From NCBI RefSeq assembly GCF_940677205.1, contig NZ_OW712331.1, positions 62,001 to 126,000 of the forward strand: a stretch of DNA of 64,000 nt, read 5' to 3'. This DNA is from [Clostridium] colinum. Lineage in GTDB: Bacteria > Bacillota > Clostridia > Lachnospirales > CAG-274. Shown piece after piece: positions 14,210-33,466 of the stretch (position 1 is its first letter; each line of letters opens with the position of its first letter). Both the position numbers and the translations under genes were made by a program. The notes below the pieces were generated by a model, which saw only the letters and a program-made list of their open reading frames with translations, searched no databases and was not told the origin of the DNA.

Positions 14210-14283
14210 AACTATTAAATTTTATAATTAATTTTATTCGTAATATGTTTATTATATACTATAATATTAAATATTACAATAGT

Positions 14284-15735: not shown

Positions 15736-15798
15736 ATTAATACCTCCTTAATCAATTCCTATCTTTTTACTACATTTTAACATAGCATATTATTTTTT

Positions 15799-16620: not shown

Positions 16621-16635
16621 AAAATAATTCACCCC

Positions 16636-16666
16636 TTGACTATCCAGTTACTGTATAGTTTATCAT
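16636..16666 (+). promoter_or_regulatory. MerR-type promoter/operator of the MATE gene
   Basis: TTGACT (16636-16641) and TATCAT (16661-16666) are separated by 19 bp, the stretched spacer typical of MerR-activated promoters. A near-perfect 21-bp palindrome ACTATCCAGTTACTGTATAGT (16639-16659) lies across the spacer. One mismatched pair interrupts the arms. Confidence 0.85.
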
Positions 16667-16704
16667 ATATTTTAAGTTTTAGCAATTTGGTTAAGGAGGT
16701 TTTT

Positions 16705-18018
16705 ATGGAAAGAAAATTTAGGTTATCACAAATATTAAAATTAACTATACCTACAATATTAATGATGTCATTTATGTCTTTATATACAATAGTAGATGGA
16801 GCTTTTGTATCTAAATTTGTAGGGACTAATGCTTTATCTGCTGTTAATATAGCTTATCCATATGTTAATTTTGTTTTAGGCATATCTGTTATGTTAGGTT
16901 CTGGTGGCTGTGCTTTAGTTATGAAAAAGCTAGGGGAAGGAAAAAGCGAAGAAGCCAAAAAAGACTTTTCTTTAATATTATATTTTGCATTTGTTTTTAG
17001 TATTATTTTAATGACACTTAGCATTATATTTATAGAGCCAATACTTAAACTTTTAGGAACTAATAGCATCTTATATAAAGATACAAAAAGCTATTTATTT
17101 TATATGATAATATTTGTAATACCTACTATATTAAAATTTATTGTAGAACAGTTTTTAGTAGCTATTAATAAATCTAAAATTGCTTTATTTTTATCTGTAA
17201 CAGGTGGTATTTTAAATATTGTTTTAGATTATATATTTATAGTATTATTAAACTTTGGAATAAAAGGAGCAGCTATAGCAACTGGCATAGGATATACTAT
17301 ACCAGCTATTATAGGGTTATTATTTTTTATAAAAAAATCTAATTTATTACATTTTAAATTGCCAAGTAAAAATCCAATGATTATATTAAAATCTTGTTAT
17401 AATGGGTCTTCTGAGATGGTATCTCAAGTATCTAGTGGTATTATTACATTTTTATTTAATATAGTAATGCTTAAATATATTGGAGAAGATGGCGTTGCTT
17501 CTATAACTATTATTTTATATATTCAATTTTTAGTTACTTCTATATTTTTAGGGTATTCAATAGGAATTTCACCAAAAATAAGTTTTTATTATGGAAACCA
17601 AGATACAGATGCTTTAAAAAGTCTTATATCAATTAGCTTAAAATTTATTTGGTCTATATCTATAATTATATATATAATTATACTTTTATTATCTTCTAAA
17701 TTAGTTATGCTATTTACAGAACAAAATACAAATGTATTTGATATATCTATTAATGGGCTAAAAATATATTCTTTTAGTTTTTTAATAGTTGGTACTACTA
17801 TATTCACTTCTTCAATGTTTACAGCTTTTTCAAACGGAAGAGTGTCTGCTACAATATCATTTTTAACAACATTAGTTTTTGAAAGTATTGGAATTTTATT
17901 ATTTCCCATGTTTTTAGGTGTTACAGGAATTTGGCTTGCAGTTCCTATTGCTCAACTATTAGGAGCTTTAGTATGTTTATATTATTATAAAAAATATAAA
18001 CCTATATATAATTATTAA
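16705..18018 (+). CDS. MATE family efflux transporter
   Basis: A 437-residue membrane protein with about twelve hydrophobic segments in two related halves, as in MATE/NorM-type proteins. Typical motifs are TIPTILMMSFMSLYTIVDGAFVSKFVGTNALSAVN at the N-terminus (segments 1-2) and YIGEDGVASITIILYI at the start of the second half. It is predicted to export cationic drugs or toxins with Na+ or H+ antiport. The open frame runs upstream to 16582, but the ATG at 16705 has a perfect AAGGAGG site five bases ahead. Controlled by the divergent MerR-type regulator; ends at a strong terminator. Confidence 0.92.
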   Translation: MERKFRLSQILKLTIPTILMMSFMSLYTIVDGAFVSKFVGTNALSAVNIAYPYVNFVLGISVMLGSGGCALVMKKLGEGKSEEAKKDFSLILYFAFVFSIILMTLSIIFIEPILKLLGTNSILYKDTKSYLFYMIIFVIPTILKFIVEQFLVAINKSKIALFLSVTGGILNIVLDYIFIVLLNFGIKGAAIATGIGYTIPAIIGLLFFIKKSNLLHFKLPSKNPMIILKSCYNGSSEMVSQVSSGIITFLFNIVMLKYIGEDGVASITIILYIQFLVTSIFLGYSIGISPKISFYYGNQDTDALKSLISISLKFIWSISIIIYIIILLLSSKLVMLFTEQNTNVFDISINGLKIYSFSFLIVGTTIFTSSMFTAFSNGRVSATISFLTTLVFESIGILLFPMFLGVTGIWLAVPIAQLLGALVCLYYYKKYKPIYNY

Positions 18019-18234: not shown

Positions 18235-18462
18235 GTGAACTGTGGTGAAAATAATCAAAATAAAGAATGTATACCTTATGAAGAGTATATAAAAGTTGTG
18301 GAATTAGCAAGAGCTTATGTTCCTTTTCAAAAGTTATGTAGCATATATGATGCTAACGAATCTATGATTAAAGGAACTATATTTCCAGAACTAGCAAGAG
18401 GTTATTGTGAAAAAGATAAAAATCTTATGAGAGAAGATAAACCTTGTTTTGAAAATATGTAA
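18235..18462 (+). CDS. cotJA: Spore coat protein CotJA-like
   Basis: A 75-residue protein beginning at a GTG six bases behind AAGGAGGG. It has the CotJA/coat-associated pattern: Y-x2-Y-x2-VVELARAYVPFQKLCSIYDA, then an EL-ARGY block and a polar Cys-containing tail. CotJA is a small inner-coat component made in the mother cell and needed for assembly of CotJC. First gene of cotJABC; CotJB starts 29 bp later. In Bacillus the operon is sigma-E dependent. I could not identify a convincing sigma-E promoter here. Confidence 0.85.
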   Translation: MNCGENNQNKECIPYEEYIKVVELARAYVPFQKLCSIYDANESMIKGTIFPELARGYCEKDKNLMREDKPCFENM

Positions 18463-18491: not shown

Positions 18492-18770
18492 ATGGAAAGA
18501 GATGAAGTTTTAAGTAATTTAACTGCATTAGATTTTATGGCAGTTGATATGGCGTTATATTTAGATACGCACCCATATGATAAAGAAGGTATAGCTATAT
18601 ATAATGAAATTTTAAAAGAAGCAGATAAGGTTCGTGCAATATATGAAGAAAAATTTGGTCCTTTATGCTCTTATCGTTCTATGTCTAATAAAGAAAAGTT
18701 TAAATGGACAGATAATCCTTGGCCTTGGCAAGATTGCTTTAACTATGATTTGAAAGGGGAGATTTGCTAA
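18492..18770 (+). CDS. cotJB: Spore coat protein CotJB
   Basis: A 92-residue protein. The family pattern is clear: LTALDFMAVDMALYLDTHPYD, then WPWQDCFNYDLKGEIC near the end (CotJB proteins characteristically finish with WPWxxxF-NYxLKGEIC-like sequence). It is a structural component of the inner spore coat and interacts with CotJC. Its stop TAA overlaps the ATG of cotJC (TAATG), showing translational coupling with the interrupted gene. Confidence 0.93.
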   Translation: MERDEVLSNLTALDFMAVDMALYLDTHPYDKEGIAIYNEILKEADKVRAIYEEKFGPLCSYRSMSNKEKFKWTDNPWPWQDCFNYDLKGEIC

Positions 18771-19144
18771 TGTGGATATATGAAAAAAAATTAGAATTTC
18801 CTGTAAAAATTAAAAATAAAAACCCACAATTGGGTAAACTTATTTTAACTCAATATGGTGGACCAAATGGTGAGTTAGGTGCAGCTATTCGTTATCTTAG
18901 TCAAAGATTTACAATGATAACACCAGAGGCTAAAGCTATATTAAATGACATAGGAACAGAAGAATTAGCACATTTAGAGATGATAGGTTCTATTGTTCAT
19001 CAACTTTCAGATGATATATCTATAGAAGAAATAAAACAAGCAGGATTAGGTGGATATTATGTAGATAATATTGTCATAATAAGACTTATTAGAAAGTATA
19101 TAATTAAAATACATAATTTATTTTACTGGAAATATTTTATATAA
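18770..19144 (+). pseudogene. cotJC: cotJC 5' part (98 codons) interrupted by the 14-kb element
   Basis: The ATG at 18770 follows AAAGGGGAG and gives the conserved CotJC N-terminus MWIYEKKLEFPVKIKNKNPQ. The family sequence continues through GELGAAIRYLSQRF, TEELAHLEMIGSIVHQL and AGLGGYYVD, ending at about 19065. The following 26 codons (to the stop at 19144) are unrelated to CotJC and belong to the element end. CotJC is a manganese-catalase-like ferritin fold protein of the inner spore coat. This part supplies helix 1 and the ExxH of helix 2 but lacks the last two helices, so it cannot build the di-metal site alone. The missing part is at 33140-33466. Type is given as pseudogene only in the sense of an interrupted gene; it is probably a functional exon-like half. 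Confidence 0.95.
19050..19087 (+). other. Left attachment junction (attL) of the cotJC intervening element
   Basis: The cotJC coding sequence ends at GTAGA (19061-19065); from 19066 the sequence is element. The shared core with the right junction is AGA (19063-19065), with GA the likely dinucleotide crossover. The element arm TAATATTGTCATAATAAGACTT (19066-19087, 22 bases) matches the reverse complement of the right arm at 13 of 22 positions. Confidence 0.8.
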
Positions 19145-19173
19145 AAATGTATAATTTTAAATTTATTTTTACA

Positions 19174-19202
19174 TTGACAAATCAATATGTAAAAGATATA
19201 AT
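19174..19202 (+). promoter_or_regulatory. Consensus sigma-A promoter of the SRP RNA gene
   Basis: TTGACA (19174-19179), 17-bp spacer, TATAAT (19197-19202): a perfect vegetative promoter about 25 bases before the RNA. Confidence 0.9.
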
Positions 19203-19228
19203 ATAGGTATTAATATGTTTTAAAGTTT

Positions 19229-19494
19229 CTCGTGCTAGTTGGGGAGGTAGCGGTGCCTTGTAACCTACAATCCGCTATAGTAGGAATGATGTTTATCTAA
19301 GGCTTTCATTTTTTAGGCCTGCCCTATAAAAGTGGTGTTGACGATTTAGTCTTACGCAATAAATGCTTGTGAACCGTGTCAGGTCTTGACAGAAGCAGCA
19401 CTAAGCAAGATTTTTTATGTGCCGTAAGGGTGCTGGATTTGAGCTAACTATATAGGTAACGCTAGGAAGTGTCTGTCGAAGGTAGATGCACGGG
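19229..19494 (+). ncRNA. ffs: Signal recognition particle RNA, large Firmicute type
   Basis: The Alu-domain sequence TGGGGAGGTAGCGGTGCC is almost identical to Bacillus scRNA. The ends pair (CGTGC near the 5' end with GCACG near the 3' end). The S-domain helix 8 motif is present as TGTCAGG...AGAAGCAGCA, followed by TGTGCCG and GAGCTAACT...GTAACGCT. The tetraloop of helix 8 reads TGAC rather than the usual GGAA. The RNA scaffolds Ffh for cotranslational membrane targeting and is normally essential. It lies inside the cotJC element, directly after attL. Ends are approximate. Confidence 0.95.
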
Positions 19495-20075: not shown

Positions 20076-20651
20076 TTATTTATTTACGTTATTTTCTACC
20101 ATATTTATAAAATACTTATGTACTTCATAACAATCTGTAAGTTCTGGATGAAAAGCCGTTGCTAATTGATTATTTTCTCTAACTGCAACTATTTTATCAT
20201 CAACAACAGATAATATTTCTACATTTTCTCCTACTTTATCTATATAAGGAGCTCTAATAAACGTCATAGGAATATCTTTGCCATTAAATTTTTCTATTGT
20301 GTTAAAGCTACCTAATTGTCTACCATATGCATTTCTTTTTGCTACTATATCTAAAGTTGCTAAATGGATTCTATGGTCATTATCTATTTTTTTAGCCAAT
20401 AACAAAAGACCTGCACAAGTCCCAAAAACAGGAATATTGTTTTTTATTTTATTAACAAGAGGTTCAAAAATATCTAACTCTTTTAATAATTTACCCATAG
20501 TTGTACTTTCGCCACCAGGTAAAATTATACCATCAAAATCTTTTTCTATATCTTTTTTTTGTCTAATTTCAAAAGTTTCTATACCTAATTTATGGAGTAT
20601 GTTTATATGTTCTATAAAAGCTCCTTGTAAGCATAAAACACCTATTTTCAT
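20076..20651 (-). CDS. pdxT: Pyridoxal 5'-phosphate synthase glutaminase subunit PdxT
   Basis: A 191-residue class I glutaminase. The family N-terminus GVLCLQGAFIEHI is present. The oxyanion/substrate motif is LPGGESTTMGKLL, the nucleophile Cys is in FGTCAGLLLLA, and the His-Glu pair is in FHPELTD. It hydrolyses glutamine and channels ammonia to PdxS, making PLP de novo from ribose-5-phosphate and glyceraldehyde-3-phosphate. The ATG shares one base with the pdxS stop (TAATG), so the two are translationally coupled. It is cargo of the cotJC element. Confidence 0.96.
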   Translation of the reverse strand: MKIGVLCLQGAFIEHINILHKLGIETFEIRQKKDIEKDFDGIILPGGESTTMGKLLKELDIFEPLVNKIKNNIPVFGTCAGLLLLAKKIDNDHRIHLATLDIVAKRNAYGRQLGSFNTIEKFNGKDIPMTFIRAPYIDKVGENVEILSVVDDKIVAVRENNQLATAFHPELTDCYEVHKYFINMVENNVNK

Positions 20652-21523
20652 TATTTGCCTCTTTCTGCCATTAAAAGCTCTATTTCAGATTCGTTTATAC
20701 CAACCATAGCTTCACCTAAATCTTCTGATAATTCTGCTATTAGTTTGTAATCTTGATAGTTTGTAACGGCTTTTACTATTGCTGTTGCTCTTTTTACAGG
20801 GTCTCCAGATTTAAATATACCAGAGCCTACAAAAACACCTTCAGCACCTAAATTCATCATTAATGCAGCATCAGCTGGAGTTGCTATACCGCCTGCTGCA
20901 AAGTTTACAACTGGTAATTTTCCATTTTCATATACAGATAATAATAACTCATATGGAACACCTAATTTTTTAGCATTGTCAAAAAGTTCATCTTGTCTTA
21001 AAGATTGTATACGTCTTATCTCAGAGTTTATCATTCTCATATGTCTAACAGCTTGTACAATATCTCCAGTGCCTGGTTCGCCTTTTGTTCTTATCATAGA
21101 AGCTCCTTCGGCAATTCTTCTAAGTGCTTCGCCTAAGTCTTTAGCTCCACATACAAAAGGTACTTTATATTTAGTTTTATCTATATGATAACAATCATCT
21201 GCCGGAGTTAAAACTTCACTTTCATCTATATAGTCTATTTCTATTGCTTCTAATAAAGATGCTTCTACAAAATGACCTATTCTAACTTTTGCCATAACAG
21301 GTATTGTAACCGCTTGTTGAATTTCTTTTATCATTTTAGGGTCGCTCATTCTAGCCACACCACCACAAGCTCTAATATCTGCTGGTATTTTTTCAAGAGC
21401 CATAACAGCACAAGCTCCAGCTTCTTCTGCTATTTTTGCTTGTTCTTTAGTTGTTACGTCCATTATAACGCCACCTTTTAACATTTGAGCAAGCTCGCAG
21501 TTTAATTTATATCTGCCATTCAT
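20651..21523 (-). CDS. pdxS: Pyridoxal 5'-phosphate synthase lyase subunit PdxS
   Basis: A 290-residue TIM-barrel synthase, the usual length. Conserved blocks are [34 protein letters not shown] with a catalytic lysine, [16 protein letters not shown] with the second lysine region, [19 protein letters not shown] and [16 protein letters not shown]. Forms a 12+12 complex with PdxT. A housekeeping cofactor pathway located inside the cotJC element. pdxS heads the two-gene transcript, which runs opposite to ffs. Confidence 0.97.
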
Positions 21524-21629
21524 AGTTAATCTCCTTTTCTAAAATGTATTTAATTTTATTTTATTATAAACTTAATTATAGCTATTTTCAATAATTATTT
21601 GTAAAAAGTTATAATCAATTTAAAATACA

Positions 21630-21656
21630 AAAACACGGATATTAATCCGTGTTTTT
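21630..21656 (-). terminator. Terminator of cheV
   Basis: AAAACACGGAT / ATCCGTGTTTT stem with T-rich flanks directly after the cheV stop. Confidence 0.85.
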
Positions 21657-21659
21657 ATA

Positions 21660-22574
21660 TTATAATATATATTTATCTATTAAATTTACAAGATTAGCAA
21701 TTTCAGGTTTTGTTATTTGCGCAGTTGCTCCTAATCTTTCACCTTTAATTTTCATTTCATCATTTATAAGTGAAGAGAAAATAATAACTGGTATGTGTTT
21801 AAGTTCTTCATCATCTCTAATAAATTTTAAAAGACGATGACCGTCCATTTTTGGCATTTCTATATCAGTAACTATACAAGCAACTTTATCTTCAATAGGA
21901 CCTGGCTGTTTTTTATATTCTTGTAAAGTATCCCAAGCGTGTTTACCATCTGTGCACATAGTTGTGTTTGTATATTGAGATTTGTGTAAACATTCTATTA
22001 AAAGTTTTTCTAACAGAGGAGAGTCTTCTGCTAAAAGGATAGGTTTTGTAGAATTATTACGTTCACCAAGTCTATCAATATCCGATACTTGTATACTTTT
22101 ATCTGGACTAATGTCTGCAAGTATTTTTTCAAAGTCAAGAATAGTTATAAGTTTATCTTTAATTCTAGCAATACCTGTTGCAAGACCTTCTTCACCACTA
22201 TATATAGTAGTATCTGGTTTTTCAATATGTTCCCAAGATATACGATGAATTTCTTCTACGGTGTGTACGTGGAAAGCAGTGTATACATTATTAAATATAG
22301 TTATTATAAAAATATCTCTACTTGGGTCTTCTGTGGCTGGTAACCCCATATATGTTGCCAAATCTATAACAGTCATTATTTCTTCTCTAGGTTTAAAAAC
22401 ACCTTCTACAAAAGGGCTAGAATTAGGCATAGGAGTAGCCTCTGTATATTTCATAATTTCTAATATTTTTGCAACATTTATACCAAAATGTCTACCTGCA
22501 ATAGTAAACTCCATAAGCTCCAGCTCATTAGTTCCACTTTCTAAAAGAATTTTTGGCTTTAATATATCATTCAA
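21660..22574 (-). CDS. cheV: Chemotaxis coupling protein CheV (CheW domain plus receiver)
   Basis: A 304-residue fusion of a CheW-like domain (about 10-160) and a response-regulator receiver (about 180-304). In the receiver the acidic pair is in LLAEDSPLLEKLL, the phospho-Asp in CIVTDIEMPKMDGHRLL, and the C-terminal KPEIANL lysine replaces the usual KP. CheV couples chemoreceptors to CheA and tunes adaptation. The open frame extends to 22631, but AGGGGGA sits seven bases before a TTG at 22572-22574. That start leads into ILLESGTNELELMEF, the usual CheV N-terminus. No other chemotaxis gene is adjacent. It lies in the element. Confidence 0.9.
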   Translation of the reverse strand: MNDILKPKILLESGTNELELMEFTIAGRHFGINVAKILEIMKYTEATPMPNSSPFVEGVFKPREEIMTVIDLATYMGLPATEDPSRDIFIITIFNNVYTAFHVHTVEEIHRISWEHIEKPDTTIYSGEEGLATGIARIKDKLITILDFEKILADISPDKSIQVSDIDRLGERNNSTKPILLAEDSPLLEKLLIECLHKSQYTNTTMCTDGKHAWDTLQEYKKQPGPIEDKVACIVTDIEMPKMDGHRLLKFIRDDEELKHIPVIIFSSLINDEMKIKGERLGATAQITKPEIANLVNLIDKYIL

Positions 22575-22802
22575 ATCAAAATCCCCCTTAAATATATTTT
22601 TATAAGTATTATTTATTAAGTTTAACAACACTAATAATGGACAAAATAACTATATAATTATAGTTACTTATTATTATAACATTTTAATTAAATAAATCAA
22701 ACAAAATTTTAAAAAATTTTAAAACTTTTTTAAAGCTAGTTGAATAATATGCATTTTTATGATAAAGTTTTTATATAAAATACTTAGGAGGATACATTTT
22801 AA

Positions 22803-24629
22803 ATGTGTGGATTTACTGGATTTACTGGAAATTTAGCTAACAAAGAAGAAGTAATAGAAAAAATGATGAATAAAATAATACATAGAGGACCAGATAGTAG
22901 TGGTATACATTGTGATGAAAATGTTACTCTTGGATTTAGACGCCTTAGCATTATAGGATTAGAAAATGGTTCGCAACCTATGTATAACGAAGATGGGAGC
23001 ATCGTTATTGTATTTAACGGTGAAATATATAATTATGAGACAATAAAAAAAGAACTTTTAGAAAAAGGTCATATTTTTAAAAGTGAGGCAGACACAGAAG
23101 TTTTAGTGCATTTATACGAAGAAAAAGGTATGGATATGCTAAAAGATATAAGAGGTATGTTTGCTTTTGTTATATATGATATGAATAAAAAAGAGCTTTA
23201 TGCAGTTAGAGACTTTTTTGGTATTAAACCTTTTTATTATTCCCATATAAATGGTAACTTTATTTTTGGGTCTGAAATAAAAAGTTTTTTAGAATATCCA
23301 GAGTTTAAAAAAGAAGTAAACTTAGTTGCTTTAGAAAATTATCTTTCTTTTCAATATTCTGTTTTGGAAGAAACATTTTTTAAAGGTGTGTTTAAGCTTA
23401 TGCCAGGTCATTATTTAAAATATAAAGACGGCAATATAGATATAACAAGATATTTTGAGCCTATGTTTGAACCAGAACAAATGAAATTACAAGATGCTAT
23501 AAAAGATGTGGATATATCTTTACAAGAGTCTATTAAAATTCACAAAGTAAGTGATGTTGAAGTTGGTTCATTTTTATCTAGCGGGGTAGATTCTAGCTAT
23601 GTAGCTGCTACATTTAAAGGAGATAAAACTTTTACTGTTGGATTTGACTATGATAACTACAATGAGATAAGCTATGCTAAAGATTTATCTGAAAAAATAG
23701 GTATAGAAAACTTTAATAAAACTATAACAAAAGAAGAATATTGGGACACTATATCTAAAGTTCAATACCATATGGACGAGCCTTTAGCAGACCCTTCGGC
23801 AATTGCTTTATATTTTGTGTCTAACTTAGCTAGTAAGCACGTTAAGGTAGCTTTATCTGGAGAGGGGGCAGACGAGTTTTTTGGAGGATATAATATATAT
23901 AAAGAGCCTTTTGATATTTCCTTTATAACAATACTATCAAAACCTATAAGAAAAGCCCTTGCTAATATTGTTAAAATAATACCTTTTTCGTTTAAAGGCA
24001 AAAACCTATTTATAAGAGCTTCAAAAGATGTTGAAGAAAGATTTATAGGAAATGCAAATATGTTTTCAAAGGAAGAAAGAGAAAGTATATTAAAAAATCC
24101 TACGGGTAAATATAACCCTATGGATATTACTAAGCCTTTATATGATAAAGTTAAACATTTAGATGATGCTACTAAAATGCAATATATAGACTTAAATCTT
24201 TGGCTTGTAGGAGACATCCTTTTAAAAGCCGATAAAATGAGTATGGCAAATTCTCTTGAGGTTAGAGTACCATTTTTAGATAAAGAAGTATTTAAAACTG
24301 CTAGCAAAATACCGTCAGATTATCGTGTTAATAAGCAAGCAACAAAATATATTTTTAGAATGGCTTCTAAAGCGTATTTACCAGAGACAGTTTCTATTAA
24401 GAAAAAACTTGGATTTCCTGTTCCTATTAGAGTTTGGCTTAAAGAAGATAAGTTTTATAATATTGTAAAAGAAGCCTTTTGTTCAGAAGCTTCTAAAAAA
24501 TATTTTAATACAGACAAAATAATGAGTTATCTTGACAACCATAAACAAGGTAAAGGAGATTTTAGCCGTAAAATATGGACAATATATATGTTTTTAGTTT
24601 GGCATAAACAATTTTTTGAGGAGGCATAG
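22803..24629 (+). CDS. asnB: Asparagine synthase (glutamine-hydrolysing)
   Basis: A 608-residue AsnB-type enzyme. Cys2 is the Ntn-glutaminase nucleophile (MCGFTGFTGN), followed by the substrate motifs RGPDSSG and VFNGEIYNY. The synthetase half has the ATP pyrophosphatase loop SFLSSGVDSSYVAATF, ALSGEGADEFFGGYN and KADKMSMANSLEVRVPFLD. It makes asparagine from aspartate, glutamine and ATP. ATG behind AGGAGGATA. A HIT-protein gene follows after only 3 bp. Paralogues act in envelope modification in some Firmicutes, so the exact substrate is not certain. Located in the cotJC element. Confidence 0.92.
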   Translation: MCGFTGFTGNLANKEEVIEKMMNKIIHRGPDSSGIHCDENVTLGFRRLSIIGLENGSQPMYNEDGSIVIVFNGEIYNYETIKKELLEKGHIFKSEADTEVLVHLYEEKGMDMLKDIRGMFAFVIYDMNKKELYAVRDFFGIKPFYYSHINGNFIFGSEIKSFLEYPEFKKEVNLVALENYLSFQYSVLEETFFKGVFKLMPGHYLKYKDGNIDITRYFEPMFEPEQMKLQDAIKDVDISLQESIKIHKVSDVEVGSFLSSGVDSSYVAATFKGDKTFTVGFDYDNYNEISYAKDLSEKIGIENFNKTITKEEYWDTISKVQYHMDEPLADPSAIALYFVSNLASKHVKVALSGEGADEFFGGYNIYKEPFDISFITILSKPIRKALANIVKIIPFSFKGKNLFIRASKDVEERFIGNANMFSKEERESILKNPTGKYNPMDITKPLYDKVKHLDDATKMQYIDLNLWLVGDILLKADKMSMANSLEVRVPFLDKEVFKTASKIPSDYRVNKQATKYIFRMASKAYLPETVSIKKKLGFPVPIRVWLKEDKFYNIVKEAFCSEASKKYFNTDKIMSYLDNHKQGKGDFSRKIWTIYMFLVWHKQFFEEA

Positions 24630-24632
24630 AAA

Positions 24633-25043
24633 ATGGAATGTATTTTTTGTAAAATTATAAATGGAGATATACCTTGTAACAAAGTTTTTGAAAATGATAA
24701 TTTTATAGCTATATTAGATGCGTTTCCAGCTAATGAGGGACATACACTTATTATACCTAAAAAACATTATAAAGATATTTTTGAAATAGATGAAGATATG
24801 TTAAAAGAAGGCTATGCTATTTCAAGGAAAATAGCTAATGGTATAAAAAAGGCTTTAAATATAGAAAATATAAATATATTACAAAATAATGGTGCTTTAG
24901 CAGGGCAAACGGTTAATCATTTTCATATACACGTTATACCACGAATAGAAAATGATGATGTAGTTATAAAGTCTAAAGCTATAAATATTGATAATGAAAA
25001 AATAGAAAAAATAGTTGATAGTATAAAAAATAATATAAAATAA
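24633..25043 (+). CDS. HIT family protein (Hint-like nucleotide phosphoramidase)
   Basis: A 136-residue histidine-triad protein. The N-terminal CIFCKIINGDIPCNKVFEND includes two Cys that may bind zinc, and the catalytic triad motif is VNHFHIHVIPR. Hint proteins hydrolyse purine nucleoside phosphoramidates or aminoacyl-adenylates. It forms a two-gene unit with asnB, which produces AMP, although no functional link is established. Confidence 0.94.
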   Translation: MECIFCKIINGDIPCNKVFENDNFIAILDAFPANEGHTLIIPKKHYKDIFEIDEDMLKEGYAISRKIANGIKKALNIENINILQNNGALAGQTVNHFHIHVIPRIENDDVVIKSKAINIDNEKIEKIVDSIKNNIK

Positions 25044-25080
25044 GTTAAGAAAGTAAAATTTATAGAAAAAATTAATATAT

Positions 25081-25121
25081 AAAAAAGCTAAGTTTAATAT
25101 ATACAAAAACTTAGCTTTTTT
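25081..25121 (+). terminator. Terminator of the asnB-HIT unit
   Basis: AAAAAAGCTAAGTTT / AAACTTAGCTTTTTT stem-loop with T run. Confidence 0.9.
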
Positions 25122-25146
25122 ATATATTAATTTTTTGAGATAATTT

Positions 25147-25190
25147 TATAATTTCTAGGTTGTATATTTTTCTACAACCTAGAAATTATA
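25147..25190 (-). terminator. Terminator of the CPBP/AI-2E minus-strand genes
   Basis: Long stem ATAATTTCTAGGTTGTA / TACAACCTAGAAATTAT, loop of eight bases, just after the CPBP stop. Confidence 0.85.
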
Positions 25191-25196
25191 AATCTT

Positions 25197-26135
25197 TTAT
25201 TGCCTAATAATACTTTTAAATGCCATAAATAAGATAAAAATTATTATGTTTACAAAGAAAAATGCTGTGAATATTTTTGGCTTATCTTGACTATTTTTTA
25301 TTGAAATATTTTCATTTTTTAATTCTTTTATTTCTTCTTTATTGACTTTTATAAATAAAAATATAGAAATTAAAAGAAATGGTAGTGATAGTAAAAACAT
25401 TACAAAAAATGGTAGAATATCAATAGCAGTAGTTTGTTTAGATAGTTCATTTAATACTGTATCAGGTGATTTCTTTGCTAAAGAGTAAAGACTTATTACT
25501 GAGGTAGAATTAATTAAAAAATGCATTAACATACTAGAATATAAAGATTTTGTTACTCTTACTAAATAAGTAAAAAATATACCTAATATTATTGCAAAAA
25601 ATAGCTGAGTAAATGTTAAGTGCATAATACCAAAGTAAAAGCTAGATATTAACGCGCCTGTTAATAAACTATTTTTTTTATAACCACTTAATATAACACC
25701 TCTAAATGCTAATTCTTCTGTTATGGCAGGTATTATTGCCGTAGAAAAAAGAGATTTAAATAGACCTAAGTTAGAAGAGTCATATAAGCTATCAACAATT
25801 TCATTTTTAAAAAATAAATCTGTAATAGCACTTATTAAATTAGCTAAGGGCATTATTGAAAAGCTCATAATTATTGTTATAAAAATATTTTTTAGGCTTA
25901 GAGGTTTTAAAGGAATAGCTTCTTTAATGTTAATCTTTTTAAAAACTACATATAATATTATAGGCAGTATAAAGCAAATAATAGAATATGTAGATTGTAA
26001 TAGCCAAAAATTTTCAGGTTTTAACATAAAAGGCATTATTTCACTAAATAAATTAATTAATAAAATATTGCCAATTAATATAGTAAATATCATTATTATG
26101 AACATAAAAAAGTTAGCGTTTTTGGGAGAATTCAT
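25197..26135 (-). CDS. CPBP (CAAX/ABI) family intramembrane protease, copy 1
   Basis: A 312-residue membrane protein with about eight hydrophobic segments. The three CPBP motifs are in order: EELAFRG (E-E-x3-R), FGIMH (F-x3-H) and HFLIN (H-x3-N). These form the glutamate/histidine site of Rce1-type intramembrane peptidases, which in Firmicutes process or resist bacteriocin-like peptides, although most are uncharacterised. The C-terminus ends in a conserved SQDKPKIFTAFFFVNIIIF helix shared with copies 2 and 3. It begins 2 bp after the AI-2E gene. Part of a local triplication; the most divergent of the three. Confidence 0.9.
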   Translation of the reverse strand: MNSPKNANFFMFIIMIFTILIGNILLINLFSEIMPFMLKPENFWLLQSTYSIICFILPIILYVVFKKINIKEAIPLKPLSLKNIFITIIMSFSIMPLANLISAITDLFFKNEIVDSLYDSSNLGLFKSLFSTAIIPAITEELAFRGVILSGYKKNSLLTGALISSFYFGIMHLTFTQLFFAIILGIFFTYLVRVTKSLYSSMLMHFLINSTSVISLYSLAKKSPDTVLNELSKQTTAIDILPFFVMFLLSLPFLLISIFLFIKVNKEEIKELKNENISIKNSQDKPKIFTAFFFVNIIIFILFMAFKSIIRQ

Positions 26136-26137
26136 AC

Positions 26138-27292
26138 TTACACCTCCATATTTTTTTCATATTTTTTATCTATAAAACGGTTAAATGTAGAAAAGATAAC
26201 AGCAAATATCGGAACACCAAAAAACATACCAGCAGGGCCAAAAAGAGCTCCACCTACAATTATAGAGAAGATAATACCAATAGGCTTAATGCCTATAGAA
26301 TCTCCTAATATTTTAGGTCCTAATATATTACCATCAAATTGTTGTAATAAAAGTATAAAGATAGATATCCAAATACTTTTTAAAGGATTTGTTATATCAA
26401 ACATTAATGTTATAAATACAACAGGAATACCACCTATAAATGGACCAAAAAATGGTATCATATTTGTTATACCTATTATTATGCTTAAAAGCATTGCAAA
26501 AGGTGCCTTTAATAACGTTGCTCCTACAAAAAATATTATACCTATTATTGTAGAATCAATCATTTTTCCAACGAAAAACTTTTCAAAAGTATAGTTAGCT
26601 TCTTTAAAAAATTGTATTAAGCTATAAGATACTTTTTTAGGGAAAATAGCATAAACTATTTTTTTACTTTTTTCTCCTATTTCTTCTTTATCAAATAAAA
26701 TATAAATAGATATAACAATACCTAATATTACATTTAAAAGAACAGATGCTATATTAATAGTGCTTGATAATATTCTTTTTAAGTAAGTAGGTACTTGGTC
26801 TATAAAACCTCTTAAAAATCCTTCTATATAGTTAGAAATACTATCTATTATACCTTCATTTATAGGTACATTTTGTTTCAACATTTTATCAAAAGCATTT
26901 ATATCAAATGTTTTAAAATATTCACTTACATCTATTATGCTTTTTTGTATTTCTGGTATAAGATAGCTAATAAGCCAAATTAAGAAACTAAATAATAAAG
27001 CATATGTAGTTGTTATAGATAATCCTCTTTTTAGTCTTTTTCTAGTATTTAAATATGTTATTTTAGAAAAAAACTTTGCTTCTAAAAATTTTAAGCTAGA
27101 GTTTAAAACATATGCTATACCTATACCATATATAAAAGGCGATAAAATATGTTTTGCATTTTTTATTGCTAAAGATACATCTAGATTAGATGATGAACGA
27201 TAAAAAATTATAGTGATTACAGCTACAAAAATTAAACATAATCCTAGTTTAAAGTATTTTTTATTTTTTTTTATAAAACTTTGAGAGTTTAT
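26138..27292 (-). CDS. AI-2E family transporter with apparent AUA start codon
   Basis: The obvious ATG-initiated reading frame (26884) lacks a ribosome binding site and would miss the first 136 residues. The same frame is open without interruption back to 27292, and this added part has the family's N-terminal membrane segments (LGLCLIFVAVITIIF, FIYGIGIAYVLNSSLKFLE). In the extension there is no ATG, GTG or TTG. A perfect AGGAGG at 27298-27303 precedes ATA (27290-27292) by seven bases. The full-length protein would be 384 residues, normal for the family. Motifs at the C-terminus include GGIPVVFITLMFDITNPLK and the LGPKILGDSIGIKPIGIIFSI block. Function: probable small-molecule or ion exporter; substrate unknown. 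Confidence 0.8.
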   Translation of the reverse strand: MNSQSFIKKNKKYFKLGLCLIFVAVITIIFYRSSSNLDVSLAIKNAKHILSPFIYGIGIAYVLNSSLKFLEAKFFSKITYLNTRKRLKRGLSITTTYALLFSFLIWLISYLIPEIQKSIIDVSEYFKTFDINAFDKMLKQNVPINEGIIDSISNYIEGFLRGFIDQVPTYLKRILSSTINIASVLLNVILGIVISIYILFDKEEIGEKSKKIVYAIFPKKVSYSLIQFFKEANYTFEKFFVGKMIDSTIIGIIFFVGATLLKAPFAMLLSIIIGITNMIPFFGPFIGGIPVVFITLMFDITNPLKSIWISIFILLLQQFDGNILGPKILGDSIGIKPIGIIFSIIVGGALFGPAGMFFGVPIFAVIFSTFNRFIDKKYEKNMEV

Positions 27293-27329
27293 AAAAGCAC
27301 CTCCTTAAAATTTTTGTGTATTATACACA

Positions 27330-27405
27330 TACTATATAATACAATATATTTTACGAAATTTCTAGTTAAAAGTTTTATAATTTATATTTTTATACAAAAA
27401 TTATG
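27330..27405. repeat. Intergenic repeat unit 1 of the CPBP triplication
   Basis: The sequence around ATACAATATATTTTACG...AAAAGTTTTATAATTTATATTTTTATACAAAAAT recurs at 28435-28512 and 29545-29620, each downstream of a CPBP or HD-GYP-side boundary. It marks the border of the duplicated unit. Confidence 0.75.
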
Positions 27406-28357
27406 TATTAATTAAATGTTTTACTAATGTTAAAAGTAATATTTGTAATATAAACAATAGTATATTTACATAAAAGAATGCTGTAAATACTTTAGGCTTA
27501 TTAGGGTTATTTTTTATTGCAATGTTTTCATCTTTTAATTTTTTTATTTCATTTTTATTATTTTTTATAAATAAAAAGATAGAAAGTAAAAGCAATGGTA
27601 ACGAGATTAAAAATATTATAAACATAATTATAACACTTTCAAAACTAGATAATGTAGATGGTTGGTCAAAGGATGTAGGGATATATTTAACAGAAAGATA
27701 AATTAATATTGCTGCTTTAGCATTAAATATAAAATGCATTATCATACTAGAATATATAGAGTTTGTTATTCTTACTAAAAAAGCCATAAATATGCCTAGT
27801 ACTGTTGTATAAACAAATTGATTTAAATTACCGTGCATCATACCAAAATAAAGACTAGACATTAATACACCTATCAATAAACTATTTTTTTTATAACCAC
27901 TTAATATAGCACCTCTAAAGGCTAATTCTTCTACTATGGCTGGTAATAATGCTATAGTAAAAAGTGATTGAAATAAGTTTAAATTAGATGCTTCTTCATG
28001 TAAAATATCAGAAACTATATCTTTTGAGAAAAGGTCTCCAATAGAAGATATAAACATTAGAAATGGTATTACTGAAAAGCCTATAAATATTATTAAAAAA
28101 ACATTTTTTAAGCTTAAAGGATTTAATGGTATAATTTCTTTAATTTTAACTTTTTTAAAAACTATATACAATGCTATAGGTAATATAAAATGAAAAGTAG
28201 AAGATATAGTGTCAAGTATGTAAGAATTTTTGGGGTTCGACAAAGAAGGAAATATTATCTTAGTAATAGGTACTATAAATACTGATAATACAGCAAATAA
28301 TGTTAATACAAACATAAATAAATTAGGATTTAAATTAGAATTTTTAGGTTCGTTCAT
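27401..28357 (-). CDS. CPBP family intramembrane protease, copy 2
   Basis: A 318-residue membrane protein closely similar to copy 3 along its whole length and less so to copy 1. Catalytic motifs are EELAFRG, FGMMH and HFIFN, all intact. Both copies share the N-terminal MNEPKNSNLNPNLFMF-like leader and the C-terminal NPNKPKVFTAFFYVNI helix. RBS is GGAGGTATAA. It is followed by repeat unit 1 and then the AI-2E gene. It is probably a recent tandem duplicate. Function inferred only from family. Confidence 0.9.
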   Translation of the reverse strand: MNEPKNSNLNPNLFMFVLTLFAVLSVFIVPITKIIFPSLSNPKNSYILDTISSTFHFILPIALYIVFKKVKIKEIIPLNPLSLKNVFLIIFIGFSVIPFLMFISSIGDLFSKDIVSDILHEEASNLNLFQSLFTIALLPAIVEELAFRGAILSGYKKNSLLIGVLMSSLYFGMMHGNLNQFVYTTVLGIFMAFLVRITNSIYSSMIMHFIFNAKAAILIYLSVKYIPTSFDQPSTLSSFESVIIMFIIFLISLPLLLLSIFLFIKNNKNEIKKLKDENIAIKNNPNKPKVFTAFFYVNILLFILQILLLTLVKHLINT

Positions 28358-28434
28358 ATTTATACCTCCATATTTTTATAAACTTTTGAGAGCATGTAAA
28401 ATATCTCTTTAAATGTTTTTACGTATCTTAATAT

Positions 28435-28512
28435 TACATAATACAACATATTTTACGTAAATTTTGGTAAAAAGTTTTTATAATTTACATTTTTATACAA
28501 AAATTACATATT
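28435..28512. repeat. Intergenic repeat unit 2 of the CPBP triplication
   Basis: ATACAACATATTTTACG...AAAAAGTTTTTATAATTTACATTTTTATACAAAAATTA, nearly the same as units 1 and 3. Confidence 0.75.
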
Positions 28513-29463
28513 AATTAAATATTTTATTAATGTTAAGAACAATATCTGTAAGATAAATAATATTATATTTACATAAAAGAATGCTGTAAATACTTTAGGC
28601 TTATTAGGATTATTTTTAATTGCAATGTTTTCATCTTTTAATTTTTTTATTTCATCTTTATTATTTTTTATAAATAAAAATATAGAAAGTAAAAGAAATG
28701 GTAATGAAATTAAAAATATTATAAATACGCTTTTTATATATTTAATAGTAGTTGGTTTAGTGAGTTCATTAAAGGCTGTAGCAGGATTGTTTTTAACTAA
28801 AAAATAAAGAAATATTCCTGCTCTAGCATTAAATATAAAATGCATTATCATACTAGAGTATATAGAATTTGTTATTTTTACTAAAAAAGCCATGAATATA
28901 CCACATAATGTTGTATAAACAAATTGATTTAAATTACCGTGCATCATACCAAAATAAAGGCTAGACATTAACATAGCTGTTATTAAACTATTTTTTTTAT
29001 AACCACTTAATATAACACCTCTAAATGCTAATTCTTCTGCTATGGCTGGTACTAATGCTATGGTAAAAAGCAATTGAAATAAGTTTAAATTAGATGTTTC
29101 TTGATATAATTCATCAATAATTATATTTTCGAAAAAAACATCTCCAATAGAAGATACAAAATCTGTTAATGGTATTACTGAGAAACTTATAAATATTACT
29201 AAAATAAAATTTTTTAAGCTTAAAGGATTTAATGGTATTATGTCTTTAATTTTGACTTTTTTTAAAATCGTGTATAATAATATAGGTAATATAAAATAAA
29301 TAGTAAAAACTATAGGGTTAAGTATGTAAGAATTTTTTGGTTCTAGTAAAGAAGGGATTAATATACCAATAATAATTAGTATAGCTGTTGCTAATGCAGA
29401 AAATAATGTTAAGATAAACATAAATAAATTAGGATTTAAATTAGAATTTTTATGTTCGTTCAT
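28504..29463 (-). CDS. CPBP family intramembrane protease, copy 3
   Basis: A 319-residue membrane protein, nearly a twin of copy 2. Motifs EELAFRG, FGMMH and HFIFN are intact, so both copies may be active. The region preceding EELAFRG (LFTIALVPAIA) and the stretch GNLNQFVYTT are shared with copy 2. Most differences lie in the extracytoplasmic loops and in segment 1, which would fit different peptide partners. First gene on the minus strand in this group; RBS GGAGTAA. Confidence 0.9.
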   Translation of the reverse strand: MNEHKNSNLNPNLFMFILTLFSALATAILIIIGILIPSLLEPKNSYILNPIVFTIYFILPILLYTILKKVKIKDIIPLNPLSLKNFILVIFISFSVIPLTDFVSSIGDVFFENIIIDELYQETSNLNLFQLLFTIALVPAIAEELAFRGVILSGYKKNSLITAMLMSSLYFGMMHGNLNQFVYTTLCGIFMAFLVKITNSIYSSMIMHFIFNARAGIFLYFLVKNNPATAFNELTKPTTIKYIKSVFIIFLISLPFLLLSIFLFIKNNKDEIKKLKDENIAIKNNPNKPKVFTAFFYVNIILFILQILFLTLIKYLINM

Positions 29464-29544
29464 ATTTACTCCTCCGTATTTTTATAAATCTTTAAAAATA
29501 TGTGAAATATTTTTTTAAAAGGTTTTTTAGATATTTTAATATTG

Positions 29545-29620
29545 CATAGTACAATATATTTTACGGAAACTTTAGTAAAAAGTTTTTATAATTTACATTT
29601 TTATACAAAAACTATTGATT
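29545..29620. repeat. Intergenic repeat unit 3 of the CPBP triplication
   Basis: ATATATTTTACGG...AGTAAAAAGTTTTTATAATTTACATTTTTATACAAAAA matches units 1 and 2. Confidence 0.75.
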
Positions 29621-29702
29621 AATTTAATAATTTAGTGGTATACTATAAAAAATAACTAAAATTTTTATTAAAATATGTAAATATTTTAGAAAGGAAGTTT
29701 TT

Positions 29703-30797
29703 ATGGCTAATTTAAAAGTACAAAAGATAAGTGTTAAAAATGCTAAACCTAATATGATTTTAGCAAAAGATGTTGTAAATTCTTCTGGCATAGTAATTTT
29801 AAGTAAAAATACTATGTTAAGTAATATAAATTATGATAAACTTGAATCCAATGGAATAAAATACATAAGTATTTTTGAAAAAAGTGATAATAGTGATGAT
29901 TTTAGTGAAGATATTTTATTAGAAAATAAAGAATCTGAGAGAATAGAAGATAGAAAAGAGTTTAAGCAGTTTAAAAAAAATTATGAAGAAAAAGTTGAAA
30001 AAATAGAAAATCAATTTGTAGCTATTGGTAAAGGTATTGGAATAGAAACAGATACTCTTTATGATGTAGTTATAGATATAGTTAATAATGTAAACTGTAA
30101 AAATGATGTATTTTCTTACTTAGGGCATTTAAAAACTCAAGATTTACATACTTATGCACATAGTTTAAATGTTGCTTTAATATGCAATCTTTTTGGCACT
30201 TGGCTAGGGTATGAAGGAGAACAATTAAAAACACTTACTGTTGCAGGTATGTTGCACGATATTGGCAAGTTAAAAATAGATGAAAATATAATTAAAAAAC
30301 CGGCTAAATTAACTAATGAAGAATACGAATGTATGAAAAAGCATCCTTCCTTAGGATATGAATTAGTTAAAGATTTAGACATACCTAATGAAATAAAATT
30401 AAGTGTATTAATGCATCATGAAAAAATAAATGGAACAGGATACCCTTTAGGGTTAAAAGATGATAGAATAGCATCTACAGCTAAAATAGTTGCTATTTGT
30501 GATATATATGAAGCTATGACAGCTAATAGAGTTTATAGACCACAAATTTGTCCTTTTGAAGTTATAAGAAACTTTGAGCAAAATAGCTATGATATTTTAG
30601 ATACACAATTTTTATTAGCTTTTTTACAAAATATAGCATATACTTATGTAGGAAGTCGTATTATGTTATCTGATGATAGAGAAGCAGAAGTTGTTTTTAT
30701 CAATAATTCTTATTTATCAAAGCCTATTGTAAGAATAAATGATGAGTTTATAGATTTATCTCAAGAAAAAGAACTATATATAAAACATATACTATAA
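29703..30797 (+). CDS. HD-GYP domain phosphodiesterase
   Basis: A 364-residue protein. The N-terminal 130 residues are a polar, lysine-rich module (DUF3391-like start: KISVKNAKPNMILAKDV). The HD-GYP domain then shows the HAHSLNVA His, the metal pair in AGMLHDIGKLKID, MHHEKINGTGYP (the HHExxxGxGYP signature) and AICDIYEAMTANRVYR. HD-GYP proteins hydrolyse cyclic-di-GMP. The substrate loop is intact, so activity is expected. Stands alone between the CPBP group and tadA, ending in a 26-bp palindromic terminator (30794-30819). In the cotJC element. Confidence 0.92.
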   Translation: MANLKVQKISVKNAKPNMILAKDVVNSSGIVILSKNTMLSNINYDKLESNGIKYISIFEKSDNSDDFSEDILLENKESERIEDRKEFKQFKKNYEEKVEKIENQFVAIGKGIGIETDTLYDVVIDIVNNVNCKNDVFSYLGHLKTQDLHTYAHSLNVALICNLFGTWLGYEGEQLKTLTVAGMLHDIGKLKIDENIIKKPAKLTNEEYECMKKHPSLGYELVKDLDIPNEIKLSVLMHHEKINGTGYPLGLKDDRIASTAKIVAICDIYEAMTANRVYRPQICPFEVIRNFEQNSYDILDTQFLLAFLQNIAYTYVGSRIMLSDDREAEVVFINNSYLSKPIVRINDEFIDLSQEKELYIKHIL

Positions 30798-30819
30798 GCA
30801 AGGTAATTACCTTGCTTAT
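30794..30819 (+). terminator. Terminator of the HD-GYP gene
   Basis: Perfect palindrome ATAAGCAAGG-TAATTA-CCTTGCTTAT overlapping the stop codon. Confidence 0.7.
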
Positions 30820-30913
30820 AATTATATTAACCATAGATTTATATTATATAAAATTTATGAGTTTTATTATTTAATTTATATCCACTATTTTTTAAACAAG
30901 GAAGGAACTTTAA

Positions 30914-31381
30914 ATGGAATATAATTTTTTTATGAAAGAAGCTTATAAAGAAGCATTAAAGGCGTATGAAATAAATGAAGTACCGATAGGTTGTGTAATT
31001 ACGTATAATAACCAAATAATATCTAGAGCATATAATAGACGAAATATAGAAAAAAATACATTAAAACATGCAGAAATAATAGCAATAGATAAAGCTTGTA
31101 AAGTTTTAGGAGATTGGCGTTTGGAAGGGTGTAATATTTTTGTTACTGTTGAGCCTTGTCCTATGTGTGCAGGAGCTATATTACAATCTAGGATAGATAA
31201 ACTTATTTTTGCTACCAGAAATAATAAAGCTGGTTGTTGTGGGTCTGTATTAAATATTTTAAATAATAAACAGTTTAATCATAGTGTAGATATAATAGAA
31301 GGTGTTTTACTAGATGAATGTAGTATGTTAATGAAAAATTTTTTTAAAGACCTTAGACGAAAGGATAAAGTTAATGATTGA
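30914..31381 (+). CDS. tadA: tRNA(Arg) adenosine-34 deaminase TadA
   Basis: A 155-residue zinc deaminase that converts A34 of tRNA-Arg(ACG) to inosine, required for reading CGC/CGA codons and normally essential. Zinc/catalytic motifs are HAEIIAIDKA (His and Glu) and PCPMCAGAILQSRI (two Cys). The N-terminal FMKEAYKEALKAYEINEVPIG is typical. ATG behind AAGGAAGG. The HAD gene overlaps its last 8 bp. In many Firmicutes tadA is followed by ffs and dnaX. Here ffs is 11 kb away at the other end of the element. Confidence 0.95.
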   Translation: MEYNFFMKEAYKEALKAYEINEVPIGCVITYNNQIISRAYNRRNIEKNTLKHAEIIAIDKACKVLGDWRLEGCNIFVTVEPCPMCAGAILQSRIDKLIFATRNNKAGCCGSVLNILNNKQFNHSVDIIEGVLLDECSMLMKNFFKDLRRKDKVND

Positions 31382-32018
31382 GTATAAAGGTGTTATTTTT
31401 AACTTGGAGGGAACTATACTAGATTCATTAAATATTTGGGAAAAAGTAGAAAAAATTTTTATAAAAAATAAAAAGATTAACATACCTATAAATTATGAAA
31501 AACATATAAAACATATGAATGTTTTAGAGAGTGCTAACTATATAAATAGCATATGTGAAATAGAAGATACAAAAGAAAATATAGTTGAAGAATTAAAGCA
31601 GTTAGCATATTTTGAATATAAAAAAAATATAAGTTTAAATCTTGGGGTTTATGAATATCTTGTATTTTTAAAGGAGAATAAAATAAAAATAGGTATTGTT
31701 ACAAATTGTGAAAAACAATTTTATGAAGTATGTTTAAAAAGGTATAAAATATACGATTTTTTTGATATTATAATAGATAGTAGTTTTGCAAAAATAGATA
31801 AAGAATATTCAGATATATATAAAAATTGTGCCACAACCTTAGGGCTTGCTCCTAAAAATATTATTGTTTTTGAAAATAAGTTAGAAGCTATAAAAGGGGC
31901 TAAAAAAGCTGGTATGCAAGTTTATTATTTTTATGAAAAAAATAACTTGGAAAACTTAGAAGATATTATACAACAAAGTGATGAATATATAACAGATTTT
32001 AGAGAGCTTATTGTTTAA
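31374..32018 (+). CDS. HAD-like protein with degenerate catalytic motifs
   Basis: A 214-residue protein with the fold and length of beta-phosphoglucomutase/PGP-type HAD phosphatases. Motif I is GVIFNLEGTILDS where DxDGT is expected, so both the nucleophile Asp and the general acid Asp are replaced (N10, E12). Motif II TNC retains Thr; motif III Lys is in KEYSDIY; motif IV reads VFENKLEAIKGAKKAGM with ED changed to EN. It is probably catalytically dead as a phosphatase, with a binding or regulatory role. Overlaps tadA and is presumably cotranscribed. The frame is intact, which argues against a decaying pseudogene. Confidence 0.85.
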   Translation: MIEYKGVIFNLEGTILDSLNIWEKVEKIFIKNKKINIPINYEKHIKHMNVLESANYINSICEIEDTKENIVEELKQLAYFEYKKNISLNLGVYEYLVFLKENKIKIGIVTNCEKQFYEVCLKRYKIYDFFDIIIDSSFAKIDKEYSDIYKNCATTLGLAPKNIIVFENKLEAIKGAKKAGMQVYYFYEKNNLENLEDIIQQSDEYITDFRELIV

Positions 32019-32114: not shown

Positions 32115-33101
32115 ATGGCTAGAAAAAGTAGGAAAAAATTTAAAATAGATAAAGCTAAAAATAGCGATAAGATATATAAATTAGGTATATATATTAGAGT
32201 ATCTGTAACTGATAATAAAAAAAATAAAAATACAATAGAAAACCAAAAAAATTTTATTTTAGATTATATAAAAGATAAGAAAGAATTTAAACTAATAGAA
32301 ATTTATCAAGATGATAATACTACAGGAACTAATTTTAATAGGGAAGGGTTTAAAAAACTTTTACAAGATATTAAAAAAGGTAAAATAAATTGTATAATAG
32401 TAAAAGATTTATCAAGATTTGGACGAAGTTATATAGAATGTAGTAATTATATCGAAAAAATATTTCCGTTTATAAATGTTAGGTTTATATCTATAAATGA
32501 CAACTATGATAGTAATAACAACAATTCTAATGAAGTATTATTAATCCACCTTAAAAATATAATAAATGAAGTGTATTCAAAAGACATTTCTAAAAAAGTG
32601 TGTACGGCAATTAAAGAAAAACAACAACAAGGAAAATTTATTGGCAATTGGGCAACTTATGGTTATTTAAAAGACCCTAATGATAAAAATAAAATTATAG
32701 TTAATGAAGAAACAAAAGATATTGTAAAAAAAATATTTAACTTAAGATTAAATGGTTATAGTTATACAAAAATAGCCAATATTTTAAATGAAAAAGGAGT
32801 TTTATCTCCATCGGCATATTTATATAGCAAAGGTATTTTAAAGCAAGATAGATTTAAATATTGTAAATGGAGCGATATTTATATAAAAACAATTTTAACA
32901 AATGAAGTTTATATAGGAAATATTGTGCAAGGAAGAAAGAAAACAGAGTTTTTTAATAATAAAGAACAAAAAAATATAAAAAAAGATAAATGGATAATAA
33001 AAGAAGATACACATTCACCAATAATTTCCAAAGATTTATTTTTTAAAGTTCAAAATATAAATTATAAATTATCTAAAGGGAGTAAGACTAATAAAAAATA
33101 A
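32115..33101 (+). CDS. Serine recombinase of the cotJC element (short large-serine type)
   Basis: A 328-residue site-specific recombinase. The resolvase catalytic domain (about 20-165) has Ser30 in GIYIRVS, the conserved NQKNFILDYIK and Arg residues in VKDLSRFGRSYIE. The Recombinase DNA-binding domain (about 175-275) has the GNWATYGYLKDP and NLRLNGYSYTKIANILNEKG signatures. It ends soon after VQNINYKLSKGSKTNKK, where SpoIVCA-type enzymes continue into a Cys4 zinc ribbon and coiled coil; these are absent. ATG at 32115, six bases behind AAAGGTG (the GTG at 32106 lies in that RBS). The stop is 39 bp from the crossover core. Predicted to excise the element and rejoin cotJC. Confidence 0.93.
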   Translation: MARKSRKKFKIDKAKNSDKIYKLGIYIRVSVTDNKKNKNTIENQKNFILDYIKDKKEFKLIEIYQDDNTTGTNFNREGFKKLLQDIKKGKINCIIVKDLSRFGRSYIECSNYIEKIFPFINVRFISINDNYDSNNNNSNEVLLIHLKNIINEVYSKDISKKVCTAIKEKQQQGKFIGNWATYGYLKDPNDKNKIIVNEETKDIVKKIFNLRLNGYSYTKIANILNEKGVLSPSAYLYSKGILKQDRFKYCKWSDIYIKTILTNEVYIGNIVQGRKKTEFFNNKEQKNIKKDKWIIKEDTHSPIISKDLFFKVQNINYKLSKGSKTNKK

Positions 33102-33117
33102 ATTGATATATTAAATT

Positions 33118-33150
33118 AAGTTTATATTTGTCACAATCAGACCACGGCTT
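33118..33150 (+). other. Right attachment junction (attR) of the cotJC intervening element
   Basis: Element arm 33118-33138 ends in TTTGTCACAATC; the shared core is AGA (33139-33141) and the cotJC 3' part follows as C CAC GGC. Joining GTA-GA (left) with C-CAC-GGC (right) gives Val-Asp-His-Gly without a frame change. Confidence 0.8.
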
Positions 33151-33466
33151 AGGTATATATCCAGTAAGTGGTGGTGGAGTTCCATTTTCTACAGAAGGTT
33201 TACAATCAACAGGAAATCCAATAGCAGATTTATATGAAAATTTAGCAGCAGAGCAAAAAGCAAAAGCTACGTATGAATATATATTAAATATGACAGACGA
33301 CCCAGATGTAATAACACCAATAAAATTTTTAAGAGAGAGAGAAGTGGTACATTTCCAAAGATTTGGAGAGGCTTTAAGACTTGTAGAAGATTATTTAGAT
33401 AGTAAAAGACAGTTTATAATAGAAAAGCCTGATAATATGAGACCACAACCAAGAAAAAATAATTAA
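33140..33466 (+). pseudogene. cotJC: cotJC 3' part (108 codons plus stop)
   Basis: From GAC at 33140 the frame encodes DHGLGIYPVSGGGVPF, then GNPIADLYENLAAEQKAKA and FLREREVVHFQRFGEALR, the C-terminal half of CotJC, with a short polar extension (residues after KRQFIIEKP). It contributes the last two helices and their metal ligands (E in AAEQKA, ExxH in EREVVH). An in-frame TTG at 33128 has no ribosome binding site, so independent translation is unlikely. A strong terminator follows (33469-33510), suited to end the reconstituted cotJABC transcript. Joined to 18770-19065 it gives a 206-residue CotJC. Interrupted-gene half rather than decayed pseudogene. Confidence 0.95.

Follow-up and report, generated by a model that had tools for sequence, protein, structure and literature searches.

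Only a handful of cases are known in which genes are reconstituted in a programmed way during sporulation, each involving a single element. In Bacillus cereus ATCC10987, gerE is interrupted by gin, a non-prophage element with three serine recombinases, and is restored in frame by site-specific recombination; excision depends on the full-length recombinase GirC and the directionality factor (RDF) GirX, and gin carries island cargo (PMC5595907). The skin element, located in sigK, is served by SpoIVCA in B. subtilis and by CD1231 together with an RDF in C. difficile (PMC5025042). SPbeta, with its recombinase SprA (YokA), and yin are mobile elements excised from the sporulation genes spsM and yabG, respectively (PMC4191935, PMC10747680).

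Here we describe a locus in [Clostridium] colinum that shares with skin and gin a sporulation gene split at a precise site, a common attL/attR core across which the reading frame is restored, and a recombinase gene (here truncated) inside the interval beside one gene half. The window, that is, the whole stretch of DNA analyzed, comprises 64,000 nucleotides. Within it the spore-coat gene cotJC lies in two halves 14.1 kb apart, the 5′ half following cotJA and cotJB:

18235..18462, + strand: cotJA (PF11007)
18492..18770, + strand: cotJB (PF12652)
18770..19065, + strand: 5′ part of cotJC (PF05067 profile positions 1-94), ending at the GA core, 19064-19065
19064..19085, + strand: attL of cotJC (GA core 19064-19065, 10-bp spacer, arm ATAATAAGAC at 19076-19085)
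33120..33141, + strand: attR of cotJC (arm GTTTATATTT at 33120-33129, 10-bp spacer, GA core 33140-33141)
33140..33466, + strand: 3′ part of cotJC (PF05067 profile positions 114-196), starting at the GA core

Joined at the shared GA (19064, 33140), the halves yield an intact, in-frame CotJC of 206 aa that is identical at 183 of 205 positions, with no internal gap, to the intact CotJC of G002, a genome of the same genus. The 3′ part is 88-91% identical to most same-genus copies, and its dN/dS is about 0.06 against most relatives; the ratio for the compared 5′ stretch is about 0.1. By this measure neither half evolves faster than copies that are intact or split differently, a pattern indicating that both are under purifying selection. 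An earlier first-pass annotation of this DNA overlooked the split gene flanking the interval, and none of the papers searched combined cotJC with an intervening element.

Most of the DNA between the halves consists of ordinary chromosomal genes:

19146..19493, + strand: SRP RNA gene and its promoter region (RNA at 19230-19493; Rfam RF01854, 188 bits)
20076..32018, no strand assigned: host chromosomal block, contiguous from cheV to HAD in G001, G005 and G006

The block comprises pdxT, pdxS, a cheV-like gene, asnB, HIT, CAAX proteases, an AI-2E permease, HD-GYP, tadA and HAD (pdxT, pdxS, asnB, HIT and CAAX were named by eye). G001, G005 and G006 have an uninterrupted cheV-asnB-HIT-CAAX-AI2E-HDGYP-tadA-HAD-SRP RNA run located away from cotJ, while G003 keeps CAAX-AI2E-HDGYP-tadA-HAD-SRP, with pdxTS beyond SRP. 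HAD and SRP are adjacent in five sister genomes. In the genome studied here (G000) the block is opened at this boundary, with SRP and its promoter after attL and HAD before the recombinase; comparison of intergenic sequences showed that SRP-side homology with the relatives begins at their HAD stop codon. Judged by this gene order, the interval is a host synteny block and not a prophage or mobile element. Either two ordinary inversions or the insertion of a circular segment would yield the G000 order. A genome search detected a sole copy of the SRP RNA gene in G000, and loss of the interval from growing cells would therefore presumably be lethal.

The recombinase gene occupies the right-hand end of the interval, its stop at 33101 being separated from the cotJC core at 33140 by 38 bp:

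32115..33101, + strand: B-type large serine recombinase gene, C-terminally truncated (328 aa; Pfam, alignment of 12 relatives, structural model)
33085..33102, + strand: putative junction left by the deletion, an A-rich run plus stop that is similar to the 3′ terminus of the full-length paralogue gene L100

The ORF starts at ATG 32115 (relatives start MARKSRK), with an in-frame GTG upstream at 32106; the AT-rich sequence preceding it gave no reliable promoter or sigma-factor signal. Pfam matched a Resolvase domain (PF00239, 1.4e-25, residues 25-174), a Recombinase domain (PF07508, 1.1e-23, residues 198-315) and no further domain. The protein stops 13 residues past the Recombinase domain, Pfam detected no zinc ribbon (PF13408), and no CxxC occurs anywhere in it, in agreement with the first-pass description. 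Of the parts of a large serine recombinase, it possesses the two N-terminal domains and lacks the zinc beta-ribbon and the coiled coil or C-terminal extension. Its AlphaFold model has a mean pLDDT of 81.6, and the closest PDB folds are serine integrases, with SprA (YokA) of SPbeta first. SprA is also the top full-length PDB match by sequence, the top match overall being the catalytic domain of TnpX (2mhc), which aligns with the catalytic domain of the query.

G000 encodes 14 more related recombinases, mostly 486-559 aa in length, several of them arranged as tandem A-B-C trios; the 328-aa protein is of the B type. All 12 aligned B-type homologues, several from the same genome, measure 510-560 aa, are 48-64% identical to it, and run about 180-230 residues beyond its residue 328, through CxxC...C...C cysteines and a long C-terminal extension. 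Pfam found the zinc ribbon in each of the three B-type proteins scanned. These lengths bear out the earlier statement that related enzymes have about 500 residues, and the longer homologues whose search that annotation had proposed favor the alternative it raised, namely that the gene was truncated and now requires a partner. It had named two findings that would count against a minimal enzyme, domains retained in relatives and a nonsense or frameshift lesion in this copy: the relatives do possess the domains, and the lesion appears instead to be a deletion.

The final residues of the short protein still align with its B-type relatives; they are followed by an A-rich run, TAA, 18 bp and the att arm. 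The A-rich tail resembles the very end of L100, the closest full-length paralogue in G000 (532 aa), whose attR, like that of the truncated gene, starts within a few bases of its stop. No remnant of the missing zinc ribbon or C-terminal part was found in the window, nor did the window contain a separate zinc-ribbon ORF, a possible split partner that the annotation had suggested looking for. From this we infer that deletion removed ~200 codons (about 200 residues) from the 3′ end. Other short members of the family are mostly visible products of decay: L016 is an in-frame fusion of B to the following gene by deletion, L035 carries a frameshift, and L038 is shortened with no visible remains. On these alignments the short recombinase is a normal large enzyme that underwent an ordinary loss, not a new minimal one; a minimal enzyme by design was rejected given the full-length relatives and the mostly decayed state of other short copies. 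Within the first 318 residues, 9 of 131 otherwise invariant positions are changed, compared to 1-8 in eight relatives. The frame is free of internal stops, and what is left of the protein diverges only slightly more than the relatives do, which may reflect either a recent deletion or some retained role.

It is nonetheless conceivable that the 328-aa protein is itself a working enzyme and that loss of the zinc ribbon and coiled coil freed the 14-kb excision from an RDF, much as the first-pass annotation had proposed in its main reading. The equivalents of the nucleophilic serine and catalytic arginines (R28, S30, R101, R104), invariant in an alignment of 24 sequences, are kept in an open frame, and the gene lies directly beside attR, as those of full-length cognate enzymes do. 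Deletion of the coiled coil costs LI integrase its directionality and leaves it with ~2% activity, while the corresponding deletion in phiC31 abolishes activity (PMC10754689). The earlier observation that no RDF-like gene lies nearby also held: within the limited set of SD motifs used, the interval contained no SD-preceded ORF of 40-130 aa, although the diversity of RDFs leaves room for one elsewhere. We consider this reading unlikely. The residual activity in those published deletions is about 2% or nil, this protein has lost its zinc ribbon as well, every aligned B-type relative is full length, and an unregulated excisor would risk loss of the SRP RNA gene, pdxST and tadA during growth unless confined to the mother cell. 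By analogy with the integrase deletions, the truncated protein is probably weak, accessory or dead.

An M23 peptidase gene and spoVB are also split in G000. The 5′ part of the M23 gene ends near 1,731,683 and its 3′ part is located at 1,720,491, with 11 kb between them. spoVB comprises three pieces that share a strand and follow the right order (1,472,202; 1,409,281-1,409,248; 1,384,427). The existence of its 33-bp middle piece was deduced from the gap, and a genome search then returned one match for it and none for a reversed control pattern. Joined products of cotJC, M23 and spoVB are all full length and in frame, and spoVB without the 33-bp piece is also in frame (493 aa). A symmetrical arm-N10-core(2)-N10-arm layout is common to cotJC (GA core), M23 (TG, assigned by position) and both spoVB sites, A and B (TA), and the attR layout of cotJC matches that of the M23 and spoVB attR sites as well as the cotJC attR in G003 and G004. 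Across 268 kb of this genome, about 0.2% of positions match the attL arm when up to 2 mismatches are allowed, so the presence of the arm at the exact expected offset in four split sites is not due to chance. Single arms were uninformative genome-wide (157+180 matches versus 210+180 for a control pattern); only arm offsets at gene breaks carry weight. A search of viral contigs for the attP junction gave no exact match. At least three genes of this bacterium are stored in pieces that could be rejoined exactly at sporulation.

The other loci have features of their own. Between the M23 halves (G000:C1:1720177-1732276; L100, L161) lie A and B recombinases and sugar-PTS genes, and the M23 gene is also split in G005 and G006. 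The spoVB locus (G000:C1:1383113-1472300; L098, L099, L149-L151) has intervals of 25 and 63 kb, each with an A-B-C trio; the larger contains conjugation- and pilus-like genes, judged by eye. A small DUF6870-type protein is encoded upstream of the trios (L098 13345-13626 and L099 12732-13106, both on the - strand; Pfam was run on the L098 copy only) and is a possible accessory or directionality factor.

The kept sites bear on a further explanation, that excision is dead and cotJC, permanently broken, is becoming a pseudogene. Its cognate recombinase is truncated, housekeeping genes now fill the interval, and cotJC may be dispensable. We judge this outcome improbable: both halves are stop-free, in frame and under purifying selection, the att sites are intact with the correct core, full-length paralogues persist (one of them beside a site with a similar arm), and the other similarly split genes of the genome restore perfectly.

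Sister species also have split copies of cotJC. In G004 it is split at the same codon with the same GA core, the sites reading GTCCTATATT-N10-GA and GA-N10-ATAATAAGAC, and the attR arms match between G000, G003 and G004. An assembly artefact might be suspected in a metagenome-type genome such as G000, yet its assembly is a single closed contig of 2,035,557 bases (2.04 Mb), both junctions carry correct, matching att sites, and the same cotJC site is occupied in the independent assemblies G004 and G003; we regard such an artefact as very improbable. Two further split positions in cotJC, near codons 34 and 68 and with other arms, occur in G003, G005 and G006; the codon-34 split also occurs in G001 and the codon-68 split in G004. 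Extra cotJC 3′ copies, each behind its own attR, are present in G003 and G004.

Several additional observations were made in these genomes. A siderophore-transport operon lies between two attR/cotJC-3′ copies of G004 with no recombinase (L073, G004:C70:20001-40000, 12439-17365), which suggests a non-autonomous passenger element. In G007, contigs C2 and C20 (L081 end/L082 start) share an exact 55-bp overlap whose end coincides with the codon-34 cotJC core, suggesting that the sample contains both intact and interrupted forms; a third G007 contig with the alternative codon-34 form was not found. Family elements also appear to have inserted at a GA core in the B recombinase gene of another element, most clearly in L023 (10024-11515), with similar arms at L021 5118 and L022 7907.

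We consider it likely that the truncated gene is the decayed remnant of a B-type large serine recombinase from an element in cotJC whose interior was replaced by host chromosome, and that cotJC is rejoined at sporulation, probably by a paralogue acting in trans. The element would have integrated site-specifically into cotJC, like skin in sigK and gin in gerE, and a rearrangement would then have swapped its interior for host chromosome, leaving, in order, cotJC-5′/attL, housekeeping genes over about 12.9 kb, the truncated recombinase gene and attR/cotJC-3′. By analogy with gin and skin, a serine recombinase in the mother cell would pair attL with attR during sporulation and cut at the GA dinucleotide. 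The halves would be joined in frame to give intact cotJC, with the junction GTAGACCACGG, and a 14,076-bp circle with the junction TTGTCACAATCAGATAATATTGTC would be released, carrying the SRP RNA gene, pdxST, asnB and tadA. Because the mother cell is terminal, losing the interval there would be tolerable. The catalyst would probably be a full-length B paralogue in trans, such as the 532-aa enzyme that neighbors the split M23 gene (1.72 Mb); we favor such a paralogue because an enzyme that has lost its zinc ribbon in addition to its coiled coil is expected to be weak or dead. This 532-aa paralogue adjoins an attR whose arm, GTTTTAAATT, resembles the cotJC arm GTTTATATTT, whereas the core of its own att site is TG rather than GA.

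A broader proposal, on which we are evenly divided, is that in this genus several spore-related genes are each dispersed around the chromosome as two to four pieces, among them the 33-bp piece of spoVB, and are rebuilt at sporulation by shared, trans-acting serine recombinases at sites that differ mainly in their 2-bp core, and that in this species excision at cotJC strips the mother-cell genome of true host DNA, including its sole SRP RNA gene, locking the interval into the germ line. Several genes of one genome are split at one site design, one with a 33-bp internal piece, and the cotJC interval appears to have exchanged mobile cargo for essential host genes. These loci offer a natural test of whether one recombinase can serve many sites in trans, of how the core dinucleotides prevent joins from being mixed up, and of how the presence of essential genes makes such an interval impossible to lose. 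Genes split in this way will be missed or wrongly called by gene callers and completeness tools.

A spore-coat gene split by host chromosome, amid several split genes, is a new setting for reconstitution of the skin and gin kind. As in gin, a spore gene is split and its in-frame, site-specific restoration is predicted, and the full elements here carry an A-B-C trio next to attR, reminiscent of the three recombinases of gin; unlike gin, the cotJC interval is filled with housekeeping genes of the host, its sole recombinase gene is a truncated B, and no RDF is known for it. skin likewise splits a sporulation gene, though a different one, but skin is prophage-like and its CD1231 has both zinc ribbon and coiled coil, features found in neither the cotJC interval nor its enzyme. 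SPbeta and yin differ from the cotJC interval in being prophage or prophage-like, each encoding a full-length recombinase of its own along with an RDF, known or putative. TnpX, whose catalytic domain is the closest PDB sequence to that of the 328-aa protein, represents the transposon recombinases: it is about 700 aa long and mobilizes a transposon.
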